This document shows, piece after piece, positions 22,388 through 40,711 of a stretch of DNA of 64,000 nucleotides. This DNA is from Nonomuraea turkmeniaca (GTDB lineage: Bacteria; Actinomycetota; Actinomycetes; Streptosporangiales; Streptosporangiaceae), in assembly GCF_005889735.1 (NCBI RefSeq), contig NZ_VCKY01000029.1, positions 1 through 64,000 on the forward strand. The letters run 5' to 3'. Position numbers and translations under genes: made by a program. How positions within the stretch are numbered: the first letter of the stretch is position 1; each line of letters begins with the position of its first letter. The notes beneath the pieces are model-generated. The model was not told the DNA's origin. It searched no databases and worked only from the letters and a program-made list of their open reading frames with translations.

Positions 22388-22474
22388 ACGGTGATGAAAG
22401 GCGTACATGCGGAATCTGCCGACATTTCACGCGCGGCGTCGACGGCGGCGTGATCGTTGATGGACGGCAGTTCA

Positions 22475-22560
22475 TGCCCTCTACCTAAGCTTGGCCAGCA
22501 CCGTCGCAACAGTGTTCAAAAGGGGTTCACTTTTCGGCGGGGGGTTCAGAAGGGGTTCAT
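22475..22560 (-). promoter_or_regulatory. Promoter/operator module 1 with four GTTCA boxes
   Basis: Plus-strand GTTCA boxes start at 22514, 22525, 22544 and 22555: two units of the form GTTCAnAAGGGGTTCA whose starts are 30 bp apart. CTACCTAAGC starts at 22481, exactly 33 bp from the first box, as in the two sister modules. On the minus strand this gives boxes, then a possible -10 (TTAGGT), then ATG at 22475, which suggests a near-leaderless start of transcription toward the DUF574 operon. The divergent regulator gene at 22803 is the obvious candidate binder. Confidence 0.55.
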
Positions 22561-22802
22561 TCCGCCACACCGGCCGAGCAGTGACCAAAGGCACGCCTGA
22601 GCTGGATGGATGGGGAATTGGTGCGGCATGTCAGCCGTGAGCGGTGGTGGCCGCCCGTATGCTCACGATGCCTGGCATGGCGGGAGGCGGCCGCCTCCAT
22701 CGAAGCGGCTGGCAGCGCGCGGGCATGTGCAGGAGGAGACACTGGTGTGGGGCGATCAGGAGGAGAATCCTCCTGTGGCAGTTCCGCAAGGCGAGGTGAC
22801 CG

Positions 22803-24008
22803 ATGGATGAGACGCTCGCGTGGTGGCAGCGGCTGAGCGCGGCTCGGGCGGACAAGCAGCTGACGCAGGAACAGCTTGCCACCAGGCTTCACGCTCTGGC
22901 GGGGCATGCGGCTCCGTTGCCGAAGCCTCCCGACCTGGCACGCATGATCCGCTACTGGGAGTCTGGACGGAACGTGCCTCGTCCTATGTACCGGACGCTG
23001 CTCAGCGGTGCGCTGGACGTGTCAGTTGGCGCCCTGTTCGGCATGAATCCTCGTCGCAGGTCCGCGCAGGCCAGCCAGCCGGCCAGCGCGCCGCGGCTGC
23101 CCGCCGATGAACACCTGGGTGACGTCTTGGACCATCTGACCAGTCAGTGGCATTTGCTGGTGCAGCGCGACAACCTGCTCGGCCCCCGCCACACCATCCC
23201 GGGCGTACGAGAGCAGCTTGGTTTGGTGACCGAGCTGCTGGCGCCCGCGCGTGGCGAAGATCGGCTGAAGGTGTTACAGCTGGCCGCCCGCTACGCCGAG
23301 TCCGCCGCCTGGCTGCACGAGGATGCAGGCCAGCCGGTTGAGGCCCTGCGCTGGACCGACCAAGCCGCCTCGTTCGCCTACGAGGCTGACGATGAACTCA
23401 TGCTCGCCTGGACCATGTTCCGCCGCAGCCAGCAGGCCATGACCGGCGCGCGGGCAGGCGAAGTGATCGGCCTGACCGAGGCGGCCCTGCGCCGGATCGA
23501 GCGGCCGCCGACGGCGATGCGAGCCGCCCTGCTCCAGCAGCAGGCTCAAGGCCATGCGTTGGACGGGCAGGAGATGCTGTGCCTGAACCTGCTGGATGAG
23601 GCACAGCGGCTGGCGGACAGGGTGAGCGATGACGGCGATGCCCGGGCGGGGCACGGCTCATTCTGCACGCCGGCGTATGTGGATGTGGTGCGTGCGAGCT
23701 GCTGGACTCATCTGGGCAAGCATGCCCGCGCGGTGGCCGCGTACGAGGAGGGGCTGCCGAAGCTGCCGCTCGTCTACCGGCGCGACCGCGGCATGGCGCT
23801 CGCCGGGCTGGCCGCGGCCCACGCCGGCGGCGGCCATCCCGAGCAGGCTGCCAAGCGGGCGCTGCAGGCGTTGGAGATCGCCACTGCGGCGGGATCGGCA
23901 CGCATCGTGCGCGTGGTGGCCGGCGTCAATGCCGCGCTTGTCCCCCATCGCAAGAAGCCAGCGGTCGCGGCTCTTCGTGTCGCCCTCGCCAACGCCTCGG
24001 GCTTGTGA
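22803..24008 (+). CDS. XRE/TPR-type transcriptional regulator
   Basis: A 401-residue protein. The N-terminal 80 residues look like a helix-turn-helix of the XRE type (LTQEQLATRLHALAG...), though with a long loop, followed by an all-helical TPR-like region (about 100-390) with repeats such as KVLQLAARYAESAAWLHEDAG and EQAAKRALQALEIA. Such actinomycete regulators bind upstream of neighbouring operons and sense a ligand or partner through the TPR part. GAGGTGACCG precedes the ATG. Its stop overlaps the RibD-like start, so both are translated together. Confidence 0.8.
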   Translation: MDETLAWWQRLSAARADKQLTQEQLATRLHALAGHAAPLPKPPDLARMIRYWESGRNVPRPMYRTLLSGALDVSVGALFGMNPRRRSAQASQPASAPRLPADEHLGDVLDHLTSQWHLLVQRDNLLGPRHTIPGVREQLGLVTELLAPARGEDRLKVLQLAARYAESAAWLHEDAGQPVEALRWTDQAASFAYEADDELMLAWTMFRRSQQAMTGARAGEVIGLTEAALRRIERPPTAMRAALLQQQAQGHALDGQEMLCLNLLDEAQRLADRVSDDGDARAGHGSFCTPAYVDVVRASCWTHLGKHARAVAAYEEGLPKLPLVYRRDRGMALAGLAAAHAGGGHPEQAAKRALQALEIATAAGSARIVRVVAGVNAALVPHRKKPAVAALRVALANASGL

Positions 24009-24919
24009 TGGCGTCCCCCATCGAGATGGCCGCGATGCGGCGGGCGATCGTGCTGTCGGCGTTCGGGCTGGGCGCCACCAGCCCCAATCCGCCCGTCGGC
24101 TGCGTCATCCTGGACGCGAGCGGACGCGTGGCCGGTGAGGGCTATCACGAGCGCAAAGGGAGCGCCCACGCCGAAGGCAACGCGCTCGCGGCCGCCGGGG
24201 CCGCGGCGCGCGGGGGCACCGCGATCGTGACGTTGGAGCCGTGCAACCACGCCGGCCACACTCCGGCGTGCCGGGCGCTGCTGCTGGACGCCCAGGTGGC
24301 CCGTGTCGTCGTCGCCATCACCGACCCCACGTCCCGAGGCCGCGGCGGGGTCGCCGAGCTGAGGGCTGCTGGGCTCTCAGTGGAAACCGGAGTTCTGGCG
24401 GAGGAGGCGCTGAAGGTCCTGGGATCGTGGCGGCGTTCCCTGCTGAGGGGTAGGCCGACGCTCACGTGGGCGTATGAGGTGGCGGGCGGGAGGGTGCGCG
24501 GCGCCGTCGGCCCGGTCGCGGCCGCCGACGAGCTGCTGTGGGAGGCGGATGCGGTTGTCGAAGCCGGAGGCCGGCTGTGGGAGGCGGTGTCGGACCGGCA
24601 CGGCAGCGGCATGATGCGCGTGCCGCCGCGGTGGGACGGCGGCGACGTGGCGGCGCTGGTGGCGGCGCTGGCGGCGGGTGGAGTGCGGCAGCTGCTCGTG
24701 AGCGGCGGCGCCGACGTGGCCGAGCCGTTCCTGCGGGAGGGGCTCATCGACGAGGTGGTTGTCTTCGTGGCCGACACCGGCAGGCCGGCCGACCGGCTCG
24801 TGTCGGAGCTGGGGTTGCTCGCGGGTTTCCGCATCGAGCACGTCGGCCGATCGGCCGATCATGTGCGTGTGCTCGCGCGCCGTGACGATCTGCGCGAGGA
24901 CGTCGCGCAGCTGGCGTGA
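24005..24919 (+). CDS. ribD: RibD-like deaminase/reductase with a shortened reductase domain
   Basis: A 304-residue protein. The N-terminal cytidine-deaminase-like domain is intact: HAEGNAL supplies the His/Glu zinc-catalytic motif and EPCNHAGHTPAC the two zinc cysteines, with the SPNPPVGCV substrate loop near 25. The C-terminal part keeps the strand order of the RibD reductase (VRQLLVSGGADVAEPFL) but lacks the expected LADDPxLTVR segment and is about 50 residues shorter than typical. It may therefore deaminate a pyrimidine or pterin-like substrate without the reduction step. It starts inside the regulator stop (GTGATG) and probably belongs to accessory metabolism, not housekeeping riboflavin synthesis. 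Confidence 0.8.
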   Translation: MMASPIEMAAMRRAIVLSAFGLGATSPNPPVGCVILDASGRVAGEGYHERKGSAHAEGNALAAAGAAARGGTAIVTLEPCNHAGHTPACRALLLDAQVARVVVAITDPTSRGRGGVAELRAAGLSVETGVLAEEALKVLGSWRRSLLRGRPTLTWAYEVAGGRVRGAVGPVAAADELLWEADAVVEAGGRLWEAVSDRHGSGMMRVPPRWDGGDVAALVAALAAGGVRQLLVSGGADVAEPFLREGLIDEVVVFVADTGRPADRLVSELGLLAGFRIEHVGRSADHVRVLARRDDLREDVAQLA

Positions 24920-25007
24920 TGGCGCCTGACCCACCGGCAGTTCACCGGCGCGGGCTTGCCCCGCCGGAATCGTTCGACGGGCCGGGCGCGAGCCTGCGGC
25001 ATGTTGA

Positions 25008-25043
25008 GGCCGGGGGCTGCGCTCAGCATCGCAGCCCCCGGCC
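25008..25043. terminator. Bidirectional terminator hairpin
   Basis: A perfect 14-bp stem GGCCGGGGGCTGCG / CGCAGCCCCCGGCC around an 8-base loop, between the convergent RibD-like gene (ends 24919) and the tandem-domain methyltransferase (ends 25188). There is no U-tract, as is common in GC-rich actinomycetes. Confidence 0.7.
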
Positions 25044-25187
25044 GCCGCCCCTCGGCCGGACCCGATCCTCGGGGGCGGGGAAGCTGCGGCACCCTTGGCC
25101 TCTCCCATGACCAGGGCGCCGCGGCGACGATCACAACATCGGCTGGCGCGCCCGAGCTCTCCCGCGGCGCACGGCAGCCTTCCGGAG

Positions 25188-26741
25188 TCAGTAGGCGGGC
25201 AGCGTCGCGTTCTCGGCGAGGCCGACGAGCGCGCGCTGTTCGGGAATCGTCGGGGGCTGGTCGCGCGCTGTATGCGCGGCGATGATCGCATGCTGGCCTG
25301 CGGCGATGTCGCCGGAGACGCGCAGCCCGGCTTTGCGTAGCAGCGTCGCGTACTCGGCCCTCGTACGTGCCCGGCCGCCGTGGGTGCGCGTCATCTGCAG
25401 AAGATCGAGCGCGATACTCGGATGTGGGTCAACGTCGTCCGGCATGACGGTCTCGACCAGCCAGAGGATGCTGCCGGGGCCCGAGGCGTCCATCGCTGCG
25501 GCAACACGAGCGAGCAGGTCGCGGGCGTCACGATCGTCAGCGTTGTGGATCAGGCCGGGCATCACGTACAGCGGGCGGAAGCCGATGGGGATCTTGACGC
25601 GCTGGGCGTGGCCGCAGGTCACGGCCCAGCGGCCCGGGTCGGCTCTGCGGGCGAGCTCGTCGGCTGCGGTGTCGGCGTCGCGGCCTCGTCCGACGTGCAC
25701 GCCTTTGGTGTGTGGGTGGCGGTGGAGAATCTCGGCCAGCAGGATGTGGCTGCCGCCGATGGTGATCACCGTGCGGATGGTGTCGGCGTGGGCGGCGATC
25801 GCATCAGCGACGGACGGCGCCATGGCGGCGCTCTGCCAGGCGTGGAAGGCGGCGATGGCGCGGGCGGCGCTCGCTGGCTGGCCGGCCATGAGGTCATCCA
25901 GGGTGCGGTGGCCGTTCAGCGCGGCAGGGGTGCCGGTGCGTACGGTTTCCTGCATGGTGGCCAGCGGCTGCCACCACGGGGGCAGCGCGTACGTCATCAC
26001 TGCGGGCCACATGGACGGTCCGCCGGAGGCGGCGGACTGGGTGAGCATGTGTCCGGCGTCGGTCTGCCGGTAGGTGCCGCTGGGCGTTCGGTAGATCCAC
26101 TGCTGGGCGTCCGCGATCCGCAGCAGCCTCACAAGGTCCTCGAGGGTTGGGCTGGGGCCGCTGCCTTCCTCGGCGCCGGCCCGCTGGCACCAGGCATGCA
26201 CGTCGTCGAGGGCCGCGGGCGCGTGGTCCAGGCGGTCGGGGATGCGTAAGGCGCAGAACAGGTGAAGGGCCTCGTACAGGTCGAGCCTGTGAAGGATCAC
26301 GTTGATCGGGTTGCTGAGGTCGCGGCTGGGCAACGGGCGGACGGCGGCCGCGTCGTGAACGCTCCGCGCTTGCAGTGCCGCTCGCATCAGCGCGGTTCGT
26401 GCAGTGTCGGGGATGCCGCTTCGGAGCGTGAGGCCGACGTCGGTCACCTGGTAGGTGCCGCCGGGATCGCGGCGCAGGAACCCGTAGGCGTGGGCGGCGC
26501 GTAACACCCGCTGCAGGTAGTCGCGGCTGAGGTTGGGCGCGCACATGGTAGAGGCCGCCCATTCCGCAAGATCGTCAACGGTGGCGGCCGAGCGTGCGAG
26601 CCGGTCGGGGATGCGCAGGTCACACAGGGTGTACATGGCGGCGTAAAGGGGCAGATTGTCGAGAATCACCTGAAGGGCCTGGCGGTGCCTGGTGATGGGG
26701 ACGGGCTCGGCGATGTCGGCGGTCTGAGGCGCAGCGGTCAT
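25188..26741 (-). CDS. Methyltransferase-like protein with duplicated N-terminal dimerisation domain
   Basis: A 517-residue member of the Methyltransf_2 family. The N-terminal winged-helix unit occurs twice: NLPLYAAMYTLCDLRIPDRL (about 28-47) and RLDLYEALHLFCALRIPDRL (about 151-170), each followed by a wing ending in GTYQVTD or GTYRQTD. The SAM-binding motif I is degraded to VITIGGSHILLAEIL near 324 where GGGxG is expected, so it may be a non-catalytic partner or regulator. AAGGG lies about 7 bases before ATG 26741. Last gene of the minus-strand run that starts near 29.3 kb. Confidence 0.8.
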   Translation of the reverse strand: MTAAPQTADIAEPVPITRHRQALQVILDNLPLYAAMYTLCDLRIPDRLARSAATVDDLAEWAASTMCAPNLSRDYLQRVLRAAHAYGFLRRDPGGTYQVTDVGLTLRSGIPDTARTALMRAALQARSVHDAAAVRPLPSRDLSNPINVILHRLDLYEALHLFCALRIPDRLDHAPAALDDVHAWCQRAGAEEGSGPSPTLEDLVRLLRIADAQQWIYRTPSGTYRQTDAGHMLTQSAASGGPSMWPAVMTYALPPWWQPLATMQETVRTGTPAALNGHRTLDDLMAGQPASAARAIAAFHAWQSAAMAPSVADAIAAHADTIRTVITIGGSHILLAEILHRHPHTKGVHVGRGRDADTAADELARRADPGRWAVTCGHAQRVKIPIGFRPLYVMPGLIHNADDRDARDLLARVAAAMDASGPGSILWLVETVMPDDVDPHPSIALDLLQMTRTHGGRARTRAEYATLLRKAGLRVSGDIAAGQHAIIAAHTARDQPPTIPEQRALVGLAENATLPAY

Positions 26742-27317
26742 GAACGTGCCCTTACGACGGCGGGGGGTGGATGGCGATGACGAGCGGGCAACATGGCGTG
26801 CGGCACGCCAGGGTCACGTGTCGTCCCCTGAGATGGGGGTGGAGGGACATCGGCGGTGAAGGGGATGGGCCCCGCCTCCTCCTGCCAGCGGCGTTGTCTC
26901 TGGCGAGAGGAGGCGGGTGGTCGGCTCAGGTGAAAGGCGGTGCAGGCCAGGGTGCGGTGGGATTAACCTGGCCTGCACCGCAGGTGGCCCCGGGCGGGGT
27001 AACACGGGCCACCAGGAGGGCGTGGCGCGGCCGTTGCCAGCGTGTTGCCGCGTGGTCCACGCCTGAGGTCGCACGGGCGTTGCGGGGCCAAGCTGCGGAT
27101 TCCCGCGCGGAGGGGGCGAGAATGGCGTCGGATCAAGGTCGCCGCCCGGTCAGGGCGAGAACGTGTGCCGTCCCGGCCCCAGGGCAGGCACCGTGCCTTG
27201 GGGCGCGCGGCGGCGGCCGGGACGGGAGCCGATGTGCACCCGGCGCGTACGCCTGTGGGAGCGTCGCGCGGTGCCCCGGCACGCTGGACACGATCAGAGC
27301 GCGATGCTTCGTCGCGT
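26742..27317. other. 576-base intergenic region with two inverted repeats
   Basis: No convincing gene. It contains a perfect 15-bp inverted repeat, GCGGTGCAGGCCAGG at 26937-26951 and its complement at 26967-26981, and an 8-bp one, GGTGGCCC at 26983-26990 with GGGCCACC at 27006-27013. They lie about 200 bases upstream of the tandem-domain methyltransferase start and about 340 bases downstream of the DUF574 stop, so they could be a terminator or attenuator, or an operator. Confidence 0.5.
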
Positions 27318-28193
27318 TCATGGAGAAGCCTTCGCTACGTGCCGCGGGCCGGCAGGGTGGAGGTCGGCGACCGCGCCCAGGATGCTTGCTGTGCCCTCCG
27401 GCTTGGGGGTGCGGCCAAGCGGGGGCCGCCACGCCGACACTTCGACGAGTTCACCGACCTCGGCGCGTGCATGATGGGGGTGCAGGGCGAGTCCGCTCAG
27501 CAGAGCGGCGATCTGTTCGCGGCTGCGCAAGGCGAGAGGGGTGCGCGAGTTCGCGAACGTCGCAGTCAGGGTTTCGGTGGCGGCAGCGTCCAGAGCGTCT
27601 GAGCAGGCGTGCGACGTGATGAGCATGCTGCCGGGCGCCAGGTGCCGTTGAAGGCTGGCGATGATGCCGGCCGGGTCGTCCTCGTCGGCGACCCAGTGCA
27701 AGATCCCGACGAGGCTCACGACGACGGGCGTTCTGAAGTCGAGCCATTGGGCCGCGTCCGCGAGGACGGGTTGAAGATCTCTCACATCGCCCTGGACGAC
27801 GCCGACGTTGGCCTGGACGCGGGCGAGCAGGGCGCGCGCGTGGACGAGGACCACGTCGTCGTGATCGACGTACACCACCCGTGCGCCGGGATGTACCGCT
27901 TGAGCGACTTGGTGCACGTTCGTCTGGGTGGGGATGCCGGTGCCGAGTTCGAGGAACTGGGTGTGGCCGCGTCCGGCTGCCCACGTGAGTGCCCGGATGA
28001 GGAACTTCCGGCTGGCGACGGCGGCCGCGCGCGTTCCGGGCGCTGCCTTCTCCATCACCGCTGCGGCTTCGGCGTCGACGGCGAAGTGATCCTTTCCTCC
28101 GAGGAGGCAGTCGTAGACGCGGGCGGAGTTCGGCCTGGTGGGGTCCACGTCTGGGAGAGCGGGCGGACAGGCCCACATGGTGCTTGCCGTCAT
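27318..28193 (-). CDS. SAM-dependent methyltransferase, DUF574 (Methyltransf_19) family, second copy
   Basis: A 291-residue paralogue of the protein encoded at 21228-22133, sharing the hallmarks NSARVYDCLLGGKDHFAVD, FLELGTGIPTQTNVHQVAQ near 78, VVYVDHDDVVLVHARALL and LHWVADEDDPAGII. Its ATG overlaps the preceding stop by one base (TGATG), so it is coupled to the small gene upstream. Like the first copy it belongs to a minus-strand operon that begins at a GTTCA-box promoter module. Confidence 0.86.
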   Translation of the reverse strand: MTASTMWACPPALPDVDPTRPNSARVYDCLLGGKDHFAVDAEAAAVMEKAAPGTRAAAVASRKFLIRALTWAAGRGHTQFLELGTGIPTQTNVHQVAQAVHPGARVVYVDHDDVVLVHARALLARVQANVGVVQGDVRDLQPVLADAAQWLDFRTPVVVSLVGILHWVADEDDPAGIIASLQRHLAPGSMLITSHACSDALDAAATETLTATFANSRTPLALRSREQIAALLSGLALHPHHARAEVGELVEVSAWRPPLGRTPKPEGTASILGAVADLHPAGPRHVAKASP

Positions 28194-28666
28194 CAGGACC
28201 CCAGCGCCGTGGGAGATGGGCGACCGGAGTTGTTGCCGGTGAAGCCGCAGGCGGATGGCTGGGCGGGCGCGACGAGGCGAGGCGCCGGTGTGCACAGGAG
28301 CGTGACGGTGAACTGAAGGAGGCGAACGGCCCACAGCATCCGAGGCAGCAGCCGGCACACGATCGGAGGAGGTGATCGGAAGAGGACCCGTTCGCAGGTG
28401 GCGGATGCGAAGCCGCCGTAGCCGGCGGGTGCGATCACCGTCGTCCCGGCCATGTGCAGGCTGGCGCCGCCGCATACCACCAGGTCGGCCGCGGAGCCGT
28501 GCGAGAAGAGGAGGCCGTTGACGGCCGGCCCTGCGGCGACGGCCGCGCTGGTGGCCAGGTCACCGTTCAGCCTGGCGTGCGCCCGTTGGACGTGCGGAGG
28601 GCCATGCGGGGCCCGGTGTGCGCGGCTCAGCAGGCGGGCCACGGTGCGGAGTGTGCGGTTGTTCAT
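28193..28666 (-). CDS. Hypothetical protein in the second DUF574 operon
   Basis: A 157-residue protein of unknown family. It is basic at the N-terminus, has a Gly/Ala-rich middle (VNGLLFSHGSAADLVVCGG, GTTVIAPAGYGGFASA), and a hydrophobic stretch (MLWAVRLLQFTVTLLCTP, about 110-128) that may touch a membrane. GGGAGA lies 5 bases before ATG 28666, which also overlaps the previous stop (ATGA). Its junctions to both neighbours argue that it is real. I cannot assign a function. Confidence 0.6.
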   Translation of the reverse strand: MNNRTLRTVARLLSRAHRAPHGPPHVQRAHARLNGDLATSAAVAAGPAVNGLLFSHGSAADLVVCGGASLHMAGTTVIAPAGYGGFASATCERVLFRSPPPIVCRLLPRMLWAVRLLQFTVTLLCTPAPRLVAPAQPSACGFTGNNSGRPSPTALGS

Positions 28667-29286
28667 CGAATCTCCCGATTCGATCCGGGCGTGCCTAAGC
28701 CGCTGCCGGCGGCGTGGCATGCTGTCGGGCGTGTGCGGAGGGGCGGCCGTACGGGCGCAAGCTGGCCCTGCTGTTCCCCAGGGGACGGCATGCTGCTGGC
28801 GAGGAGGCGGCGCACTTCTTGCGCCGAGGGCAGGGTTGCCACGTTGACCGGGGTGGCGGGCACGACCCAGCTGGTGTTCGGCGGCCCCGATGATGGGACG
28901 GAGGGTGTCGGCAGCGGGAGCCATGTGTCGGCCTGGCTGTCCGGCTGCTCCGGTCGTGTAAGGACGAGCAGGTCGTTGCCGACGAGCAGCATCGGTGCTC
29001 CGGGCGGCAGCTCTGCCTGATCCCATGCGCGCAGGAGGCGCCGGCCGTCGGACTCGGACAGGTGCATGGTGTCGAAGGCGACGCCGATCTGCGCGAGCAC
29101 ACTGGCGTGAGGCTGAAGGACCCATCTGGTGCGCAGCACCAACGGGTCGGTGCTGGGCCTCTGCTGCCGCTGCGGGTGGCGGCCCGGTGCGCCGCACAGT
29201 GCGTCTCCGCATGAGCATCCGCTCGCGGTGACGTGGGTGCCGGCCGCGATCGGCCATCCCCATGAGGCGTAAAGGAGCGCGGTCAT
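28663..29286 (-). CDS. Small protein related to the bifunctional primase/polymerase N-terminal domain
   Basis: A 207-residue protein whose start (YASWGWPIAAGTHVTASGCSCGDALCGAPGRHP) matches the opening of prim-pol N-terminal domains, including the CSCG...CGAPGRHP cysteine/His cluster. The rest (about 50-130) follows the fold loosely, and the tail is Pro/Ser-rich. Full prim-pol catalytic residues are not obvious, so it may be a nucleotide-binding or regulatory derivative. ATG 29286 is preferred; the frame extends to 29340, where the conserved promoter module places an ATG, so an 18-residue N-terminal extension from a leaderless mRNA is possible. First gene of its operon. Confidence 0.65.
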   Translation of the reverse strand: MTALLYASWGWPIAAGTHVTASGCSCGDALCGAPGRHPQRQQRPSTDPLVLRTRWVLQPHASVLAQIGVAFDTMHLSESDGRRLLRAWDQAELPPGAPMLLVGNDLLVLTRPEQPDSQADTWLPLPTPSVPSSGPPNTSWVVPATPVNVATLPSAQEVRRLLASSMPSPGEQQGQLAPVRPPLRTRPTACHAAGSGLGTPGSNREIR

Positions 29287-29339
29287 TAGCGGTGTTCGCG
29301 CTATTGGCCGCGCTGTGCCTTTCGGCAACCGGCTGTCCA

Positions 29340-29433
29340 TGCCCTCTACCTAAGCTCGGAGATCACCGCCACGACAGTGTTCAAAACGGGTTCACTTCGC
29401 TCTGGGGGGTTCAAAAGGGGTTCACTTCGTTCA
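29340..29433 (-). promoter_or_regulatory. Promoter/operator module 2 with GTTCA boxes
   Basis: Boxes start at 29379, 29390, 29409 and 29420, with a further half-box at 29429. The two units are again 30 bp apart, and CTACCTAAGC starts at 29346, exactly 33 bp before the first box. On the minus strand a TTAGGT hexamer lies just before ATG 29340. It sits between the primase-like gene (minus) and the regulator at 29526 (plus). Confidence 0.58.
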
Positions 29434-29525
29434 AATTTGTTTTCGGTGCGTCCTTTTAAAGCCCCACTTCGCGCCCTTACGCTCTGTAAAGGAATGCAGC
29501 CGGGGGTACGTCGCGGAGGGACGGC

Positions 29526-30914
29526 ATGAGCGCGATCGCGAACAGGGCATTGGCCGACCTTATGGCCGAAGCGGGCATGTCCAATAAAAAGCTCGCGGGA
29601 AAGTTGCGTGAGCTTGCGTTGTCCCACGGCCTGCCCGGCTCGTACACGCACGTGTATGTCGCCCGGTGGCTGGAGGGCATGCATCCCCGGGGGCAGACAC
29701 CGCACCTCATCGCGTCCGTGCTGGGCCGCGAACTTGGGCGGGTTGTCACGCTGGACGACATCGGCATGACCGCCACTGCGGCGGATCTTGCTCCCGGGTT
29801 CGGGCTGGACTTCGCCCCGGCCCCGCAGACGATCTTGCGCACGACCCGGAGGCTGTGGGAAGCGGATCTGGGACGAGAGCCTCTGCTGCGTCTGGACGAC
29901 GTGCCGGCGAAAACGCTCCTGTCTCCGATGGGCCTGTGGCTGATCGCGGTACCTCCCCAGCCGCCGCGGCGCAGCGGACGTGCCCGGAAGGTCACCGAGG
30001 CGGACGTGGAACGGGTGCGGCTGACCACGCACCTGTTCGAGGATCTCGACCATCGCTTCGGAGGCGAGTACCGCCGCCAGACGGCCGTGCAGTACCTCCA
30101 TGGCGAAGTCAGCGAGCTGCTGCACAGCCAGTACGTCGCCGCGGTGGGCCGGGAGCTGTTCGCTGCCGCCGCCGTGATGACGTACAAGGTCGGCGCCATG
30201 GCCTACGACTCGGGCCTGCACGGCTTGGCGCGCCGCTACTTCATGCAGGCGCTGAACCTGGCGCACGTCGCCGGAGACCGCCCTCTGGCCGGCAAAGTGT
30301 GGGCGTTGCTGAGCCACCAGGCCAACTTCCTGGGCGAGTACGGGGACGCCGTCGCGTTCGCCCGTGCGGCCAAGCTCGGCGCACAGAGCGCGGCGACGCC
30401 GACCGTGCACGCCATGTACTGCGCGATGGAAGCGCGCGCGCTGGCCAGCCTCGGCGACCGGCGCAACGCCATCGCCGCGTTACGCGAAGCCGAACGCTCC
30501 CACGGCAAGGGCAGGCCCGAGACCGAGCCTGACTGGATCGCCTACTTCGACAGGGCCGAACTGTGCGACGAGTTCGGGCACTCCTTCGCGGCCCTTGGCG
30601 ACAAGGGCGACGCCATCGAGTTCGCCCAGCTGACGTTGCGCGAATCCAGCGACCGCTTCCCCCGCTCCCGGGTGTTCGCGCAACTGACGCTCGCCGGCGC
30701 TCACCTGGACGGCAAGCCGCTTGAACGAGACGTGGAACAGGCATGCCTGGTCGCCGGTGCCGCGCTCGAACGCGCCGGCCACATCAGGTCAGCGCGAGTC
30801 CGCCAGTACGTCACCCGGTTCAACCGCCGCCTGACGCCGTACGAGAAGAAGGCGGCGGCCGTGGGCGAGTTTCGCGAACAGTGGCACGACCTTCTGCGAC
30901 GGTGCGCCAGTTGA
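29526..30914 (+). CDS. Transcriptional regulator with TPR-like domain
   Basis: A 462-residue protein with an N-terminal helix-turn-helix-like region (MSNKKLAGKLRELALSHG, YVARWLEGMHPRGQTPHLIASVLGREL, about 18-75) and a helical TPR-like C-terminal region (about 160-440) containing repeated A-x-R-x-A patterns such as DRRNAIAALREAERSH. GGAGGGAC precedes the ATG. It diverges from the primase-like/DUF574 operon, with promoter module 2 between them, and has the same general design as the regulator at 22803. It is probably the local regulator of that promoter. Confidence 0.78.
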   Translation: MSAIANRALADLMAEAGMSNKKLAGKLRELALSHGLPGSYTHVYVARWLEGMHPRGQTPHLIASVLGRELGRVVTLDDIGMTATAADLAPGFGLDFAPAPQTILRTTRRLWEADLGREPLLRLDDVPAKTLLSPMGLWLIAVPPQPPRRSGRARKVTEADVERVRLTTHLFEDLDHRFGGEYRRQTAVQYLHGEVSELLHSQYVAAVGRELFAAAAVMTYKVGAMAYDSGLHGLARRYFMQALNLAHVAGDRPLAGKVWALLSHQANFLGEYGDAVAFARAAKLGAQSAATPTVHAMYCAMEARALASLGDRRNAIAALREAERSHGKGRPETEPDWIAYFDRAELCDEFGHSFAALGDKGDAIEFAQLTLRESSDRFPRSRVFAQLTLAGAHLDGKPLERDVEQACLVAGAALERAGHIRSARVRQYVTRFNRRLTPYEKKAAAVGEFREQWHDLLRRCAS

Positions 30915-30924
30915 CATGCGCGGG

Positions 30925-31839
30925 TCATGTTCCCGGCGTCCACGCCCTGGCGGCGCTCCCGTCGCGCAAGGTGGAGATGCGGAGGTGAGCCTCAGGTATC
31001 AGGCGGGGCTCACGGCTGGTGCGGCTCGCCAGCCATGTCGTCATCCTGAGCTGCCGCACTTTCGCCAGCGCGTCGAAGCCTGCCCACCGTGTGATGTCGG
31101 CGCCGTACGCCTCGACGAAGGCGGCGTACTCGGCGGCGGTGTACCAGCCGACGACGTGGTAGTTCGCCACGACGACCAGGTCCCATTCGATGGGGCCGAT
31201 GGCGAACCGTTCGAGGTCGAGCATGACGGTACGGCTGTCGGCGGTGCGGACGAGGTTCTTCCTGTGCGGGTCGCCGTGGATGGCGCGCGGCTCGTGGGCG
31301 AACGGCAGGGCGTTGTAGGCGGCCTGCAGCTCCTCCAGGAGGTCCAGCAGGAAGCGCCGGTCGCGTTCGTGAAGGCCGGCGGCGTCGTGAATGTGGGCGG
31401 CCTGGCGGTAGAACGGGTCGAACATGGGCAGCATGCCGTCAGGCGGGGCAGGAAGGGCGTGCAGGTGCCGCAGCAGCGCGCCGATGTCGGCCGGTCGTCC
31501 CTGCTGCGGGTCGGGGATCTCCTCCCAGAACGTGACCGGCCGGTCGTCCGCCAGCACCGGCTGGTCCGCGACCGCGGCCGCCGGCCGGACCGCCGGCAGG
31601 TTCTGCTCGGCGAGCCACCCGGCAACGCGAAGCTCTCGTTCGACCGTGGCCAGCGCTGGCATTCCCCACGCCACCCTGGCGACGACATGTTCGAGCGGCA
31701 GCCTGAAGACGCCGTTGTCGCCAACGGGACCGAGGAGCGTCGCGCCCGACCAGGCCAGCCCTGTCTGCTCGCATGCGAGCTGGAGAGCGTGAAAAGCAGC
31801 CGCCGCGGTGAAGGACGCGGCCTGGCCATCGGGCGTCAC
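30925..31839 (-). CDS. Aminoglycoside-phosphotransferase-like (APH) kinase
   Basis: A 304-residue member of the APH/choline-kinase fold. The catalytic loop is IHGDPHRKN near 188-196 and the metal-binding DLE segment (VMLDLERFAIGP) follows near 206. The N-lobe is recognisable (VVARVAWGMPALATVERELRVAGWL). It would phosphorylate a small hydroxyl or amino compound; the substrate cannot be read from sequence. It converges on the regulator gene with 10 bases between the stops. Confidence 0.82.
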   Translation of the reverse strand: MTPDGQAASFTAAAAFHALQLACEQTGLAWSGATLLGPVGDNGVFRLPLEHVVARVAWGMPALATVERELRVAGWLAEQNLPAVRPAAAVADQPVLADDRPVTFWEEIPDPQQGRPADIGALLRHLHALPAPPDGMLPMFDPFYRQAAHIHDAAGLHERDRRFLLDLLEELQAAYNALPFAHEPRAIHGDPHRKNLVRTADSRTVMLDLERFAIGPIEWDLVVVANYHVVGWYTAAEYAAFVEAYGADITRWAGFDALAKVRQLRMTTWLASRTSREPRLIPEAHLRISTLRDGSAARAWTPGT

Positions 31840-32439: not shown

Positions 32440-32495
32440 GCCATCTGCTGGCGAAGATCGGAAGGAGCGCCCTCATGTAAGGGCAGCGGTGGAAA

Positions 32496-32621: not shown

Positions 32622-32710
32622 TCACAGGCCCGTGACCCTGGCGCCTTCGTCGTGCCGGTGTCCCGAAGCTAGGAGCCACGATAGACGATGGCCCCCTGGC
32701 GCCGCCACCT

Positions 32711-35442: not shown

Positions 35443-36720
35443 ATGCACGAGTCCTCGGGTCGGCTACCCATGCCCGAACCCGCTTCCACCACTGCCGCGG
35501 GCCACGTCCGTCATGCCCGCATGCCGTCGGCCGCTGCGGCGGCCGACGTGCCCCTTCCCGAGGGGTTGGCTCGGGCGGCGTCGCGCGCCCTGTGGCTGCG
35601 CGTCGTCGCCGCACACCCGGACGCCGGCGTTCGCCGCGGCGACTGGCGGCGAGGCCTTGACGCTGTCGTGTGGCAGCTCGCCACCCGCACCACCCGCACC
35701 ATGCTGACCGTGCCCGCCAAGGGTGCTACGTGGGCGATCATGGCCGCGGATGGGTGCGTGTCCCGGGCTGTGCTTGCCGACCGCATCTCCTGGCTGATCG
35801 CCCGCGGCCTGCTCGTGCGGGCCGTCGCCGGGTCGACGCCCCGCTACCGACGTGGCACCCGCCAGGGCCTCGACGACGACGGCCTCGGCAACCTGGCTGC
35901 CCAGTACATCCTCACCGTGCCTGAGGACCTCCTGCAGGAGATGGCCGACGACCTCGACCACTCCCCCGCTCTCGTCCCCGCCGACGCCGACGACATCGAT
36001 GCGGAGGTGCCGTGGCCTGTTGAAGTGCTGCCTGTGGATCAAACTTGGACCCCCTCACCCACACCTGCTGATGTAGGAGATGAGACTCCCCGTAGCGCGG
36101 GCGCGCGCGAGCGGCCTGTTGCCGCGTCACCGGTGTCGGCGTGGCCGGCCGTCGTTACGCCGCACACCAAGGCCGACATGCTCGCCGCGTGCGAGCGGCT
36201 GCGGGCCGACGATCCGTTGCTCGCCCAGCTGACCGCCCGACACCTGCGCAGCCTGCTGCGGGCCGCGTTCATCTCCGGTGCCACCGTCAGCGACGTTCGG
36301 TACGCCATCAATCACCGCGTCGACGGGACGCAGCACCCGTACACCGACAGGCCGCGATGGCTGCCGGCCTGGCTGCGGTCCCGGCTGGCCCACTGGGTTA
36401 ACGCGGATGGGGAGCCGGTCGCGCCCTGGCCGTCGCAAGCGCGTGCCCAGGCGGTGGCGCGTGACCGGGCAGAGCAGCAACGTCGGCGCGCTGACCGTGC
36501 CCACGCTGTAGCCGCGTGCGGCGACCCTGTACGGGGCGCTGCACGCGCCCGCCAATTGCTCGCCGAAGCAACTGGCCGGACAGGCCCGCAGCCTGGCGTC
36601 ATCAAGCCTGTCGAGGAGGTAGCCGGACGCCGGCGGCGCGTAACGCCTTGGCGCGGTGGGCCAGCATCTCGCCTCGCCGATAGCGAACCTTCTCCTGCGA
36701 CAGCCATCTGCCGAGGGTGA
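35443..36720 (+). CDS. Replication-associated helix-turn-helix protein (hypothetical)
   Basis: About 425 residues. Residues about 35-130 look like a winged helix (GATWAIMAADGCVSRAVLADRISWLIARGLLVRAV). A Pro/Asp-rich linker follows, and then a second helical segment (about 240-320: DPLLAQLTARHLRSLLRAAFISGATVSDVRYAIN). Such proteins follow Rep genes in actinomycete elements, but I do not recognise a named family. ATG 35443 has an AGG five bases upstream; 35413 and 35470 are alternatives. The 3' end overlaps the convergent helicase gene by 119 bases; the last 40 residues are basic and low-complexity. Confidence 0.65.
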   Translation: MHESSGRLPMPEPASTTAAGHVRHARMPSAAAAADVPLPEGLARAASRALWLRVVAAHPDAGVRRGDWRRGLDAVVWQLATRTTRTMLTVPAKGATWAIMAADGCVSRAVLADRISWLIARGLLVRAVAGSTPRYRRGTRQGLDDDGLGNLAAQYILTVPEDLLQEMADDLDHSPALVPADADDIDAEVPWPVEVLPVDQTWTPSPTPADVGDETPRSAGARERPVAASPVSAWPAVVTPHTKADMLAACERLRADDPLLAQLTARHLRSLLRAAFISGATVSDVRYAINHRVDGTQHPYTDRPRWLPAWLRSRLAHWVNADGEPVAPWPSQARAQAVARDRAEQQRRRADRAHAVAACGDPVRGAARARQLLAEATGRTGPQPGVIKPVEEVAGRRRRVTPWRGGPASRLADSEPSPATAICRG

Positions 36721-38932
36721 GCTCATCGGGAGGCGGAGTGACGTACTTCTGCGGCACGTCGACGTTGCCGTTGTGCGCGCGCTTGTAGACGTACAGCGCG
36801 GCCAGATAGCGGTTGAAGCGGTACTCCAGAGCGTCCCAGATGAAGCCGCGTTTCTCGAGTTCCTTGATCTCTTCCTCGGTCAGGGTGCCTGCCCGCCAGC
36901 GCCGTCGCACGCCGGCGACCTTCCGGCCCAGCTTGCGAGGGTCAGGTCCGGGGGTGACATAGTCCTGAGGGATGTCGAGGTCGCCATGCGTCTTGCGGTA
37001 GGCGTCGAGGTCGGCGAGGAATTGCGTACGCTCCGCGTCCAGGACGTGCCAGACCATGCCCATGGCGGTGAGCTGGCTGGCGAAGTCGGAATCGAGAGTT
37101 CCTGCTTGGTAACGAGTTCGGATGCCGCTGATGACAGAGCCGAGCGGGTACGGAGGATCGTCGCCGGTGACGTAGCTCCTGGCGACGAGCAGGTCGCCGT
37201 GCGCTTTCCTGTAGATGCGGCACTCGGAGATGATGCGCTGCCGGTTATGGTCGCGAAGGTCCCACACCATGTCGAGGGCGTCCATGCGGGCGACCCACTG
37301 AGCTGAAAGGCTGCCGTCCTTCTTGTAGGTGCGCAGGTGATGCAGCCAGCCGCCCAGCAGCAGACCCGAGGGCGCCGTCCAGTCCTCCGGCACGAGCAGA
37401 TCGCCGAACTGGGCGCGGTACGCTTCGGCGGCGCCGTAGAGCTCCTCCCACGAGTGAGTGCTGGCGCGGACCGTCTGAACGGCGATCGCGCTGGCGAAAC
37501 CAGACGGGACGGGCACGCCGGCGATGCGAATCCAATCGGGTAGTTCCGCGATGTCGGCGAAACCCGGATCGGTGCCGAGCTGCCGACGCAGCGCGCCGAG
37601 GTGGGCGGCGAGGCTGTCGTCGTGCGCGGCCAGCGCGCGGACGACCTGCCACACCGGCGCGTACGCCGAGCTACTGAGGGCGGTTTCCGGGTCTTCGCCC
37701 GGGCCGAGGATGACCGGAACGATGACGGAGGCCGTCTTGGGGCCGGGCTGGTCACCGCGGCGCAGGGCCCGGCCGATGGCCTGGATGGTGTCGATGGGTG
37801 AGGTGCGGCTGTCGATGAACGCCACCGCGTCGACGGCGGGCACGTCGATGCCTTCGCCGAGCACGCGAGCGTTGCCGATGACGACCAGGCCGTCGTCATC
37901 GGAGCGCAGACGGTCGAGGATCGCGCGGCGCTGAGCGAGCGGCTGGCCGCCGTGGACGTGCCCCGTCCACAGGCTCGTCGGCCGTTCGCCAGGTTCGAGC
38001 AGGGTGGCGGCGTGACGCAGGGTCGCAGCGAACCATTCGGCGTTGCGTACGCGGTTGTGGAAGGTGATCATGCGGTGGATGCCGTACTGCTGGGCGGCGC
38101 GAAGCACGGCAATCTGGGTGGCGAGCATGGCGGCTGAAAGCGCCGAGCGGCCGCTTTGGTAGAACTCCGCAGGCTGTGGGGAACGGGCTGCGGCGCGGAG
38201 GTGTTCGTTGGTCACCATGGGCACCACGGTTTGGTACCGGGCCAGCAGGCCCTGGTCCCGGGCTGCGGAGAAGCTGAGCCGATGCGCGATCTCGCCGAAG
38301 ACCTTCGTATCGTCCATGCTGGCGACGTCATCGCCGCCGCTCAGGATCACCTTCGGGGTGGCGGTCAGGTACAGACGCCGATCGGCCGGCAGATGCGCGT
38401 TGCTGTGAACGGTCGTCCACGCCTTGCTGACGTGGCCGACACTGCGGTGCGCCTCGTCGATGATGATCAGGTCCCACATCGGCAGGCCGTGCTCGTGCGC
38501 GGCGGCGATCACTGGCAGGCTGTGGTAGGTGCTGGCCACGGTCACCCTGCCCGGCCCGGCGGCGATGCTGGCGAGTTGACCGGCGTCGGACGTGACCGCG
38601 GCCTGGTGCTCGTGGAGTTCGCCCTCGTACTCATCCAGGACCTTCTGATCCGAGCAGACGGCGATCACCCTGCCCAGCGCCTGGTCGCCGAGCAGCGCCC
38701 GCCACTCGCGAATGGTCTGGGTGAGCAACTCCAGGAATGGCGCCACGATCAAGACCCGGCCACTGCCGGCGCGATGCAGAAGCCTGCTGCTGGTGGCCGC
38801 GCCTATGCGGGTTTTTCCAGTTCCGCAGGCCATGACCGTGGTTGCGCGCTCGGCGTTGCCGAGCGCGGCGATTGTCGCCTCGACCGCCTGGTGCTGATGC
38901 GGCCATAGTTCGTAACTCCGCTGGTCGCTCAT
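36602..38932 (-). CDS. DEAD/DEAH-box superfamily 2 helicase with HA repeats (second)
   Basis: A 776-residue protein of the same architecture as the one at 10149-12566. Walker A is GTGKT at 37-41, the DEAH box is near 159-162, the TATP motif is present, and motif VI is QAIGRALR. The C-terminal part carries HA-type repeats such as YGAAEAYRAQFGDLLVPEDW and YRKTHGDLDIPQDYVTP. ATG 38932 is chosen by similarity to the first helicase; the frame extends to 39136 without a better start. It follows a methyltransferase gene with a 231-base gap and overlaps the replication-associated gene tail to tail. Confidence 0.86.
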   Translation of the reverse strand: MSDQRSYELWPHQHQAVEATIAALGNAERATTVMACGTGKTRIGAATSSRLLHRAGSGRVLIVAPFLELLTQTIREWRALLGDQALGRVIAVCSDQKVLDEYEGELHEHQAAVTSDAGQLASIAAGPGRVTVASTYHSLPVIAAAHEHGLPMWDLIIIDEAHRSVGHVSKAWTTVHSNAHLPADRRLYLTATPKVILSGGDDVASMDDTKVFGEIAHRLSFSAARDQGLLARYQTVVPMVTNEHLRAAARSPQPAEFYQSGRSALSAAMLATQIAVLRAAQQYGIHRMITFHNRVRNAEWFAATLRHAATLLEPGERPTSLWTGHVHGGQPLAQRRAILDRLRSDDDGLVVIGNARVLGEGIDVPAVDAVAFIDSRTSPIDTIQAIGRALRRGDQPGPKTASVIVPVILGPGEDPETALSSSAYAPVWQVVRALAAHDDSLAAHLGALRRQLGTDPGFADIAELPDWIRIAGVPVPSGFASAIAVQTVRASTHSWEELYGAAEAYRAQFGDLLVPEDWTAPSGLLLGGWLHHLRTYKKDGSLSAQWVARMDALDMVWDLRDHNRQRIISECRIYRKAHGDLLVARSYVTGDDPPYPLGSVISGIRTRYQAGTLDSDFASQLTAMGMVWHVLDAERTQFLADLDAYRKTHGDLDIPQDYVTPGPDPRKLGRKVAGVRRRWRAGTLTEEEIKELEKRGFIWDALEYRFNRYLAALYVYKRAHNGNVDVPQKYVTPPPDELTLGRWLSQEKVRYRRGEMLAHRAKALRAAGVRLPPRQA

Positions 38933-39121
38933 GTACGGGGTTTCATGCTTTCTGCGTCGAAGGGATGCAGCACGTGAAGGTCGTCCGGCAAGTGCCCAGA
39001 CGTGATCGCGCAGCAGTGGAGGGCGGCCGGGCATGAAACGTGGCAGCGGGTGGAATGGAGACGCCGTTCGCGATGACGGGGCGGTGGCGCCCATCAAGAC
39101 AATCGCTGCCCGCGATTGCTG

Positions 39122-39157
39122 AACTGTCCAGTGCACCAGCGGGCGCGCTGGACAGTT
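39122..39157 (-). terminator. Terminator hairpin behind the methyltransferase gene
   Basis: A perfect 10-bp inverted repeat, AACTGTCCAG at 39122-39131 and CTGGACAGTT at 39148-39157, with a 16-base loop, starting 7 bases after the stop of the minus-strand methyltransferase. It would separate that gene from the downstream helicase gene. Confidence 0.6.
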
Positions 39158-39163
39158 GAGGGG

Positions 39164-40240
39164 TCATGCCGCAGGCTGGGCGATCATGAGCGTTTGATCG
39201 GCAGGCAGAGCCTCGGTGGCGATGATGTCGAGCCCCGCCAACCGCATCAGCTCCTGGTACTGCTCCAGGGTTCTTTCTTGTCCATCGGCGAACAAGGTCA
39301 TCATGCGGACGTCGAGGTCGATGGCGCTGGTGCAGACGCCAGGCTTGGGCAGCAGCGTCTCGATGCACCACAAGCGAGCCAGCGGCCCTGCTTTCCTCAG
39401 AGCGTCCCCAACGTGAGCCAGGAGCAGACGGCTGTCGGTGTCGTCATGGTTATGTAAGACCAACGGGAGGATGATCACATCAGCGGGCGGGCAGAGGTCG
39501 CTGAACATGTCGGCGTAGGCGACCTGTACGGGGTCGGCCACCTCTTGTTCAGCGTGATGGTGTTCGGCTTGCTCGGCGACGCGGGACCGTTCGACCAGGA
39601 TCCCCTTGAGGTGCGGATGAGCGCGCAGAATCGTATCGAGTACGTTCCTGGCCCCGCCGCCGGCCACGGCCAGAGTGCGCACGCTGCTGTAGTCGCGGTC
39701 GGCCAAGGCGTCAGCAACGGCGCGGCTCTGGCCGTTCATGAACATGTCGAACAGCGTCGCCAACTGCCGATCGCGGGTCAGGAGCGCGTGCGGGGCGACG
39801 TGGTCCCTCAAGATCGCAGGGTGTCCGATGCAGATTGTCTCGGGCAGCCGCTCGCCAGCCTCCTGCCACAGCGGCGCCATCGTCACACCGACTTCCGCCC
39901 ACATCGAGCCTTCCCCAGGCAGCAGCACCTGGCCCATCGCGGTCAATCCGTAGCGTCCTGCGGCGTCCCTGTCCACGAGGCCGTAGGCATGCATCGCGTA
40001 CAGGAACCTGCGCATCTTCGACCGGTCGGCTTCGCAAACGGCTGCTACGTCGTCGCTGGCCCGGGGGCCGTCCTTGAGAATCAGAGGGATGCCCAGGGTG
40101 ACGAACGCCCACAGTGCTTTCAACCGGACGTCGCCACCGACGGTCATCGCTCGGAGCGCCTGATACGGACTCGCCACAGGCCGATCGGCGCACGAGCCGG
40201 CAGCGAAAAGCTTGGTCAGATCATGATGGTCGGTGGTCAC
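39164..40240 (-). CDS. Methyltransferase-like protein (Methyltransf_2 family) with altered SAM motif
   Basis: A 358-residue protein, normal length for the family: a winged-helix dimerisation region (about 25-110) and a Rossmann domain. Motif I reads AVAGGGARNVLDTIL near 188-202, keeping the glycines but without the usual acidic or polar start, so catalysis is possible but not certain. HNHDDTDSRLLL near 270 occupies the catalytic-His region. It shares its plan with the proteins encoded at 18026 and 25188 and, like their operons, lies downstream of a GTTCA promoter module (about 410 bases upstream). Confidence 0.82.
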   Translation of the reverse strand: MTTDHHDLTKLFAAGSCADRPVASPYQALRAMTVGGDVRLKALWAFVTLGIPLILKDGPRASDDVAAVCEADRSKMRRFLYAMHAYGLVDRDAAGRYGLTAMGQVLLPGEGSMWAEVGVTMAPLWQEAGERLPETICIGHPAILRDHVAPHALLTRDRQLATLFDMFMNGQSRAVADALADRDYSSVRTLAVAGGGARNVLDTILRAHPHLKGILVERSRVAEQAEHHHAEQEVADPVQVAYADMFSDLCPPADVIILPLVLHNHDDTDSRLLLAHVGDALRKAGPLARLWCIETLLPKPGVCTSAIDLDVRMMTLFADGQERTLEQYQELMRLAGLDIIATEALPADQTLMIAQPAA

Positions 40241-40533
40241 GCAGTGGCTCCAGGAGACGAGGAGGAAGTGGACGGATGTGAGCTGGGCCTACCAGGTCAG
40301 ATCGGTGGCGCCGACCTGCTCCGCCGGGTTCCCGTCAGGCACGCGTTGGGACAACTCAGAAGGTGGCCGCCCCCCGCTTACGCCCACGCCGCCCCACGCC
40401 TGGACGGGTGGAGCCCAGCGTCCGCTTGCCGAACGGTGCTGCCGCTCCACGGGCGGTGGCCGGCGGCGTGGCCATCTGGTACAGCTTCTGGCCCATCCCA
40501 GCGCACCACACGCTGACCGCGGGAGGAGATCGA

Positions 40534-40573
40534 GCAGGAGTAATCCGGAGAAATGAGTGGCAATATCTCCTGC
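40534..40573 (-). promoter_or_regulatory. Conserved leader element, second copy
   Basis: On the minus strand: AGGAGATATTGCC, then TTTCTCC and ATTACTCCTGC. It matches the element at 22345-22387 in order and spacing below promoter module 3. Probably part of the 5' leader of the methyltransferase mRNA. Confidence 0.4.
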
Positions 40574-40652
40574 CTCGCGGTGTCGCCTCTCACGGCCGCC
40601 AGCGTTTCACGCGCCGTCGACGGCGCTCCGTTCCTCGGCGAGCGGCGGTTCA

Positions 40653-40711
40653 TGACCTCCTACCTAAGCCCGGTCAGCACCGCCGCAACAGTGTTCAAAA
40701 GGGGTTCACTT
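40653..40711 (-). promoter_or_regulatory. Promoter/operator module 3 with two GTTCA boxes
   Basis: One GTTCAAAAGGGGTTCA unit starts at 40693, with CTACCTAAGC at 40660-40669, exactly 33 bp away as in modules 1 and 2. On the minus strand TTAGGT is followed by AGGAGG and ATG 40653. It lies between the methyltransferase at 39164 (minus) and the nucleotide cassette (plus). The second unit present in modules 1 and 2 is missing. The rest of 40241-41085 holds no supported gene. Confidence 0.55.

Follow-up and report, generated by a model that had tools for sequence, protein, structure and literature searches.

We analysed a stretch of 64,000 nucleotides of Nonomuraea turkmeniaca (contig NZ_VCKY01000029.1, positions 1 to 64,000; hereafter the window), which comprises all but 0.7 kb of the 64,715-base contig in a genome of 11.35 Mb. 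The window carries three copies of a promoter module in which repeated TGAAC boxes (GTTCA on the plus strand) lie upstream of methyltransferase operons. In the reading that we favour and regard as fairly probable, these box arrays are bound by NsdA2, a regulator of the NsdA family encoded at 29526, which would activate three leaderless or nearly leaderless operons, and the switch shares its ancestry with control regions of loci resembling actinomycete integrative and conjugative elements (AICEs). We regard NsdA2 as the probable reader since homologous arrays accompany the genes of its close relatives. What is new here is this likely reader and the mobile-element-like relatives of the arrays.

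Promoter modules and their conservation

The copies 1 to 3 of the window are referred to as W1 to W3 and the corresponding copies in the Nonomuraea relative G043 as G1 to G3. The box pairs, proposed core promoters and starts in the window are as follows, where ORF stands for open reading frame.

22514 to 22529, minus strand: copy 1 proximal box pair TGAACCCCTTTTGAAC, box centres at -52 and -41 from the ATG, 22 of 22 bp the same in G043
22544 to 22559, minus strand: copy 1 distal box pair, centres at -82 and -71
29379 to 29394, minus strand: copy 2 proximal box pair
29409 to 29424, minus strand: copy 2 distal box pair, in a region homologous to AICE-like control regions
40693 to 40708, minus strand: copy 3 single box pair, centres at -53 and -42
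22482 to 22487, minus strand: copy 1 proposed -10 sequence TAGGTA, with a weak -35-like TTGCGA at 22504 to 22509
22473 to 22475, minus strand: copy 1 conserved ATG, proposed leaderless start, 6 nt after TAGGTA
29347 to 29352, minus strand: copy 2 proposed -10 sequence TAGGTA
40661 to 40666, minus strand: copy 3 proposed -10 sequence TAGGTA
28663 to 29340, minus strand: first ORF under copy 2, which begins at the proposed leaderless ATG and encodes 225 aa without a family match

The unit GTTCAnAAnGGGTTCA occurs exactly at 22514, 22544, 29379, 29409 and 40693, and a search allowing three mismatches gave no further sites in the window (in the shuffle control of this loose search, at least five matches were obtained in 1 of 100 shuffles). 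CTACCTAAGC is located at 22481, 29346 and 40660, each time 33 bp from the proximal unit, so that both the three modules and the fixed distance described in an earlier note on this DNA are confirmed in all three copies. Read on the minus strand, the three places share the layout TGAACCC(C/G)TTTTGAACACTGT(T/C)G(C/T)G...GCTTAGGTAG, followed by an ATG. A second unit is present at a distance of 30 bp in copies 1 and 2; it is absent from copy 3, which has two TGAAC boxes compared to four at the others. The earlier note had taken these 30 bp as about three helical turns and the boxes as an array fixed on one face of the helix. The repeat itself stands for copies 1 and 2, with phased boxes at -82, -71, -52 and -41, but 30 bp are nearer 2.9 turns than 3, and the spacing is not strictly fixed: in G1 to G3, the units are 29 bp apart, with box centres at -81, -70, -52 and -41 when the A of the ATG is taken as the start.

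The genome-wide motif scan proposed in the earlier note revealed the 16-bp unit TGAACCCnTTnTGAAC at exactly five sites in the 11.35 Mb, all of them in this cluster, so the unit is not widespread; the looser pattern GTTCA-N6-GTTCA gave 14 genome sites, five of them in the cluster, compared to five for a reversed control pattern. The whole module (boxes, 22 to 30 bp, TAGGTA) was detected in two of 341 family genomes, the own one included, with three copies here and three in G043, where they sit in a cluster that is syntenic over about 20 to 40 kb of the window. Since the module is present in these two genomes and none of the other 339, we take the three copies to form a cluster-specific regulon, in agreement with the single regulon over about 18 kb that had been suggested before. 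A longer pattern with three mismatches, run over 54 genomes of the genus, gave no additional copy. A wider scan of 257 Gb of contigs, which may not include records of the genome analysed here, returned 84 stretches, namely three in Nonomuraea sp. SYSU D8015 and 81 with a single match in other organisms, equivalent to about 0.004 stray matches per 11-Mb genome. Nine of the 81 are from Shewanella and may share one ancestral sequence; the remaining ones were taken as chance. Viral contigs gave 15 single matches to the module pattern, and the promoter DNA of copy 1 had no plasmid match. In the alignment of the two clusters, the segment 31817 to 35876 takes up about 4 kb in the window compared to only about 0.14 kb in G043.

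The likeness of the modules could also be that of a recently duplicated segment with no shared regulatory role. W3 and G1 do align over 233 columns, leader included, at 75% identity, and the segment was therefore duplicated. However, GCTTAGGTAG is identical in all six copies and the box regions are nearly so (22 of 22, 20 of 22 and 22 of 22 bp the same between the window and G043 for copies 1 to 3), whereas flanks and leader diverged, as did the synonymous sites of neighbouring genes, with a proportion of synonymous differences (pS) of 0.32 to 0.42. Moreover, the distal pairs decay, with one box altered in G1 and G3 and the pair lost in W3, while the proximal pair is kept in all copies and the two changes of G2 relative to W2 fall between its boxes. 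We thus regard a duplication devoid of regulatory meaning as scarcely probable.

As the earlier note had it, the boxes are followed on the minus strand by a TTAGGT hexamer and an ATG, at 22475, 29340 and 40653. The gap between TAGGTA, which is present in all six copies, and the ATG is 6 nt in five copies and 7 nt in W3, an arrangement that fits a leaderless or nearly leaderless start with transcription presumably beginning at or near the ATG. The boxes do not overlap this proposed core promoter. According to PMC4895711, 21% of the primary starts in S. coelicolor are leaderless. The coding evidence is also consistent with such starts. The 225-aa ORF of copy 2, which by its pattern of substitutions is coding, is 78% identical to its counterpart in G043 with a ratio of nonsynonymous to synonymous changes (dN/dS) of 0.31, and of 0.17 over its first 39 codons, and the ATG of copy 3 in G043 opens a 323-aa Methyltransf_19 gene (278 bits). 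The first codons are shared among the copies, roughly as M[DN]xRxPxxxxPxAR, and are frameshifted in W1. A conserved peptide in the leader of copies 1 and 3 was considered and rejected: W1 is frameshifted relative to G1, and dN/dS is 0.61 over 61 codons between W3 and G1. Because the CAGGAG DNA of this leader, described below, is kept while the reading frame is not, a constraint on DNA or RNA is likelier than one on a peptide; no Rfam match was found in the window, and none at E<=1 over 22000 to 22600. A reading of TGAAC as the -35 sequence of an extracytoplasmic function (ECF) sigma factor was also dismissed, as by inspection the six copies show no conservation where its -10 sequence would be expected.

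NsdA2 and the arrays of AICE-like loci

The proposed reader, which has a helix-turn-helix (HTH) and a tetratricopeptide repeat (TPR) region, is encoded divergently to copy 2.

29526 to 30914, plus strand: NsdA2 (P0006), HTH-TPR regulator of the NsdA family proposed to read the arrays, NF053720 E 3.5e-119
30925 to 31839, minus strand: APH-like kinase (PF01636), convergent with NsdA2, the same in AICE-like loci
29475 to 29492, plus strand: inverted repeat CCTTACGCTCTGTAAAGG within the promoter region of NsdA2, with CTCTGTAA common to most core NsdA upstream regions

We examined 30 loci, namely the best matches to NsdA2 as query among the matches listed. A four-box array was present upstream at all ten loci whose regulator has the HTH motif RWL[DE]GM[HR]PRGxTPH and at none of the 20 loci without it, and letter shuffles of those ten upstream regions yielded four boxes in 0 of 20,000 cases. 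This link between HTH sequence and box array provides a specific operator prediction for the NsdA family. Among the nine closest relatives that were fetched, eight (in G032, G025, G004, G048, G051, G033, G003 and G008) have the array upstream; the one exception is L131 in G042. In the eight, the array comprises three boxes reading TGCACC plus a TGAAC(A/G)C box, at distances of 21, 20 and 12 bp (20, 20 and 12 bp in L130). A pattern for this AICE-like array was found at nine places in eight of the 54 genomes, all beside an NsdA2-like gene, with one match for a reversed control; as the pattern was built from those same loci, only its absence elsewhere is independent. It had no match in viral contigs.

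The eight control regions align with copy 2 through the boxes and the promoter into the leader. With 5,000 segments of 220 bp drawn at random from both clusters as controls, seven of the eight regions scored above all controls and the eighth (L132) was equalled by three; the array-free region of L131 scored at chance level (3,862 of 5,000). A convergent APH gene lies within 1.5 kb in six of the nine relatives, one of the six being L131, which is without the array; in the window, only 10 bp separate NsdA2 from its APH gene.

Of the eight loci with the array, the three that were annotated further, L205 to L207, look AICE-like from their gene content. GntR, APH, an NsdA2-type gene, the array, small ORFs and core-gene candidates occur among them, though not all in each stretch. 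L206 encodes a primase-polymerase (Prim-Pol, 149 bits), HTH_17, an FtsK_SpoIIIE match slightly below its cut-off (23.3 versus 24) and an integrase cut by the end of the stretch (18.6 versus 27.1), L207 a Prim-Pol (144 bits), an integrase (48.3) and a long ORF without a match at the place expected for Tra, and L205 an FtsK_SpoIIIE match (23.4), with none of the other core genes scanned turning up in its stretch. NsdA-like genes of 27 to 36% identity are described in Frankia AICEs (PMC3218068). The locus in the window resembles AICE control regions with NsdA-like genes of the XRE type in that copy 2 aligns with the AICE-like Nonomuraea arrays, and it differs in having four TGAAC boxes instead of three TGCACC and one TGAAC, and metabolic operons downstream. 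Plasmid candidates were rejected as well. The Streptomyces plasmid L222, with an NsdA-like gene, an annotated primase/polymerase and APH in the same layout, differs in its HTH and is devoid of a TGMACC array, and the plasmid DNA matches to an AICE-like control region are weak, the first without an annotated NsdA-like neighbour and the second without annotation at that place.

NsdA2 matches the NCBIfam model NF053720 with 399.1 bits over residues 8 to 452 (cut-off 75 bits) and hence belongs to the family, but it is not an equivalog of NsdA itself (177.9 bits versus a cut-off of 830). Its structural model (predicted local distance difference test, pLDDT, 85; predicted template modelling score, pTM, 0.76) suggests an N-terminal domain of four helices, consistent with an HTH followed by TPRs, for which matches cover residues 145 to 462. 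A Pfam search gave no HTH match in NsdA2, and the PDB held no sequence relative at E<=0.01. Among the matches listed for the 54 genomes, an orthologue (89%) is found in G043 alone, i.e. in two genomes including the own one, and no other match exceeds 43% identity, except for a piece of 149 residues at 51%. Together with NsdA1, the second family member in the window, NsdA2 passes NF053720 and shows the HTH-plus-TPR layout of the Streptomyces proteins NsdA (SCO5582), NsdB and NsdAsr; it differs from these in scoring far below the equivalog cut-off and in the specific box array and probable activation, not repression, that are proposed here. Regulators of this family influence antibiotic production and sporulation in Streptomyces and are also present in mobile elements. 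In a limited look at the literature, we found no published operator for them, and a search of the paper on NsdAsr with chromatin immunoprecipitation sequencing and electrophoretic mobility shift assays (PMC12243394) did not return the terms 'motif', 'footprint' or 'conserved sequence'. Upstream of most core nsdA genes of Nonomuraea (L135 to L143 and L145 to L153), we observed the order CCTTTAC...GTGCTATAAC...CTCTGTAA, the last part of which recurs at 29475 to 29492.

Based on these comparisons, the three modules would be copies of one regulated promoter, to which NsdA2 would bind side by side and on one helix face, at TGAAC boxes spaced 11, 19 and 11 bp apart and at the one pair of copy 3. The last box, centred at -41, would place the protein beside RNA polymerase in a position like that of a class II activator, and NsdA2 would thereby switch three operons assembled around a recurring module of S-adenosyl methyltransferase, substrate-binding protein, O-methyltransferase and ABC (ATP-binding cassette) transporter. 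That it acts as an activator is where we lean, with modest confidence. Copy 2 shares its ancestry with the control region upstream of most of the closest NsdA2 relatives. The simplest path to the present arrangement would be a cassette of array, NsdA2 and APH that is shared with AICE-like loci, the array of which was copied twice, together with the first codons, to positions before Methyltransf_19 modules in an ancestor of both species. Mobile elements may have been the source of the switch.

Several observations weigh against this picture. The other copies resemble the AICE-like regions less than copy 2 does: G2 beats all controls with four of the eight regions and is equalled by 5, 52, 155 and 155 controls with the others, copy 1 beats all controls with three of eight, and W3, G1 and G3 with none. 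The box spacing is mostly 21, 20 and 12 bp in the AICE-like loci versus 11, 19 and 11 or 11, 18 and 11 bp here. In the tree, the eight AICE-like regulators form one clade (support 100/99), but L144, which has no array, joins them (98/95) before NsdA2 does, and L131, also without an array, joins nearby, the fork that unites all of them with NsdA2 being supported by 88/78 with long branches. Because these two group so closely, losses or separate gains of the array are needed, and the association of array and HTH type is, as far as the tree tells, partly one of shared descent and not one clean clade. Furthermore, the region upstream of NsdA1 holds the boxes of copy 1 in both species although the HTH of NsdA1 is of another type, a situation to be expected for boxes that serve the divergent operon. 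Near its own start, NsdA2 has a separate inverted repeat. The proposed -10 sequence TAGGTA is without the final T of TAnnnT and the -35 sequence is poor, and the NsdA proteins studied so far are described as negative regulators (PMC12243394 and PMC3218068). Finally, a tblastn search with the proteins of L205 to L207 found no homologues of AICE Tra, Rep, Int or Xis at E<=1e-3 in the window or in 80 kb of G043 and matched only NsdA and APH in both clusters. Without integrase, FtsK-like Tra and Rep/Prim-Pol matches, the locus in the window does not appear to be an AICE.

The TPR domain may sense a ligand. The TPR part of the NsdA2 model aligns with the RRNPP receptors Phi3T Rap (Z 18.2), AimR (16.9), NprR (16.0) and pLS20 Rap (15.9), but unrelated eukaryotic TPR proteins score up to 20.1, so that the likeness shows a TPR superhelix and no more; by model comparison, this superhelix is also MalT-like. 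Some receptors of the Rap, AimR and NprR type steer mobile elements. It would be a bold and rather unlikely extension that regulators of the NsdA2 type are ligand-responsive decision switches of AICEs which read phased TGMAC arrays, and that in one Nonomuraea lineage the whole switch was captured and copied before three operons of a specialised-metabolism cluster. If true, a set of metabolite operons would be run by the decision circuit of a mobile element, and the ligand of the AICE switch might be a peptide as in RRNPP systems. The locus offers an example of a control switch common to mobile-element-like DNA and a metabolic cluster, and the array comes in two natural versions, TGCACC and TGAACC, which could serve for matching amino acids to bases.

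Other candidate readers of the boxes

A regulator encoded outside the window, with a DNA-binding domain of the OmpR type, either PhoP or a Streptomyces antibiotic regulatory protein (SARP) such as AfsR, might bind the 11-bp repeats with NsdA2 merely nearby. The sites of SARPs and PhoP are 11-bp direct repeats, in the case of SARP/AfsR upstream of a weak promoter as here, and the core of the S. coelicolor PHO box is GTTCACC (PMC4415409 and PMC10936776). In G043, moreover, a SARP gene is found about 4.5 kb from G3. Although the 11-bp periodicity agrees, the distance does not: the 3' repeat of SARP sites sits 8 bp from the -10 sequence, compared to about 26 bp to TAGGTA, and by inspection a SARP-like distance of about 8 to 9 bp results only if another, poor and weakly conserved GGTGCT-like sequence is the -10. 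The SARP of G043 has no close counterpart in the window's genome (39 matches, the best-scoring 34% identical and none above 41%), i.e. there is no shared SARP gene. With respect to PhoP, the proximal units read GTTCAAA and GTTCACT, and upstream of phoU, the one pho gene examined, the GTTCA boxes point to the gene and lie close to the proposed -10, which differs from the modules in orientation and distance. Nor does a SARP or PhoP explain the association of arrays with the NsdA2 HTH motif (10 of 10 versus 0 of 20 loci). We thus consider an OmpR-type reader unlikely.

The earlier note had named the regulators at 22803 and 29526 as candidates. For the latter, NsdA2, this still holds in view of the arrays beside its relatives, whereas the former, NsdA1, more likely reads a different element. 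The features around NsdA1 are:

22803 to 24008, plus strand: NsdA1 (P0002), NsdA-family TPR-like regulator, 401 aa, NF053720 E 5.9e-51, 174.3 bits
24005 to 24919, plus strand: RibD-like deaminase/reductase, paired with NsdA1
22346 to 22383, plus strand: CAGGAG inverted/direct repeat in the copy 1 leader, proposed NsdA1 operator, conserved in G035
40535 to 40572, plus strand: CAGGAG element in the copy 3 leader
22758 to 22774, plus strand: perfect palindrome AGGAGGAnnnTCCTCCT a short way upstream of NsdA1, also kept in G035

As a second member of the NsdA family encoded divergently to copy 1, NsdA1 would be a conceivable reader of the GTTCA boxes. However, copies 2 and 3 are far from it, no GTTCA pair was found at the three loci examined (L200 to L202) among its four relatives at 57 to 58% identity, and such a pair is also missing in G035, where the NsdA1 orthologue (73%) retains the palindrome, the CAGGAG element, the divergent Methyltransf_19 gene (64%) and the RibD-like neighbour. 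A role of NsdA1 at the GTTCA boxes is thus very unlikely. Because G035 keeps the CAGGAG element without a GTTCA pair, NsdA1 probably reads these separate sites, and the CAGGAG repeats, which are also present in the leaders of W1, G1 and W3, together with the palindrome probably constitute a second, separate operator system that belongs to NsdA1. The pair of NsdA1 and RibD-like genes recurs in G043, G035, G044, G020 and G016.

Operons and neighbouring genes

The gene families downstream of the modules bear out the methyltransferase operons of the earlier note:

21228 to 22133, minus strand: operon 1, first clear gene, encoding an S-adenosyl methyltransferase (Methyltransf_19), PF04672 E 4.4e-89, start inferred
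20419 to 21231, minus strand: operon 1 protein of 270 aa, no family
19225 to 20346, minus strand: operon 1 substrate-binding protein, NMT1/SsuA-like, with a match to the SsuA family below the cut-off
18026 to 19228, minus strand: operon 1 O-methyltransferase (Methyltransf_2)
16101 to 17659, minus strand: operon 1, two ABC permeases
27318 to 28193, minus strand: operon 2 Methyltransf_19, with an overlapping ORF at 28193 to 28666
25188 to 26741, minus strand: operon 2 O-methyltransferase (Methyltransf_2)
39164 to 40240, minus strand: operon 3 O-methyltransferase (Methyltransf_2); in G043, a Methyltransf_19 gene starts at the ATG of the module

Operons 2 and 3 are subsets of the gene set of operon 1; G043 has fuller operons 2 and 3, but has lost the methyltransferase of copy 1. 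In operon 2 (27318 to 29340), the 225-aa ORF, the ORF at 28193 to 28666 and the methyltransferase overlap by a few bases, which suggests translational coupling. Each module had been thought to face a divergent regulator or a nucleotide cassette. This applies to copies 1 and 2, but the neighbour of copy 3 is not conserved: a gene predicted on the same strand takes its place in G043, and the nucleotide cassette is thus not a conserved partner. Relatives of Methyltransf_19, binding protein and O-methyltransferase occur as a recurring set within 8 kb of each other in the Nonomuraea genomes G017, G050, G046, G006 and G010 (L186 to L191), in G017 with permeases beside them, and no GTTCA or TGAAC pairs were seen in the stretches read there.

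The protein P0003 had been considered as a Prim-Pol because of a resemblance; it has no family match and no similarity to the AICE-like Prim-Pol. Elsewhere in the window, a NIT-domain histidine kinase adjoins a Roadblock protein as a conservon-like pair (12547 to 15929), a pair of paralogous helicases, each with four helicase-associated (HA) domains, is encoded at 10149 to 12584 and 36602 to 39136, and a gene for an Lsr2-like nucleoid protein is located at 51714 to 52109.

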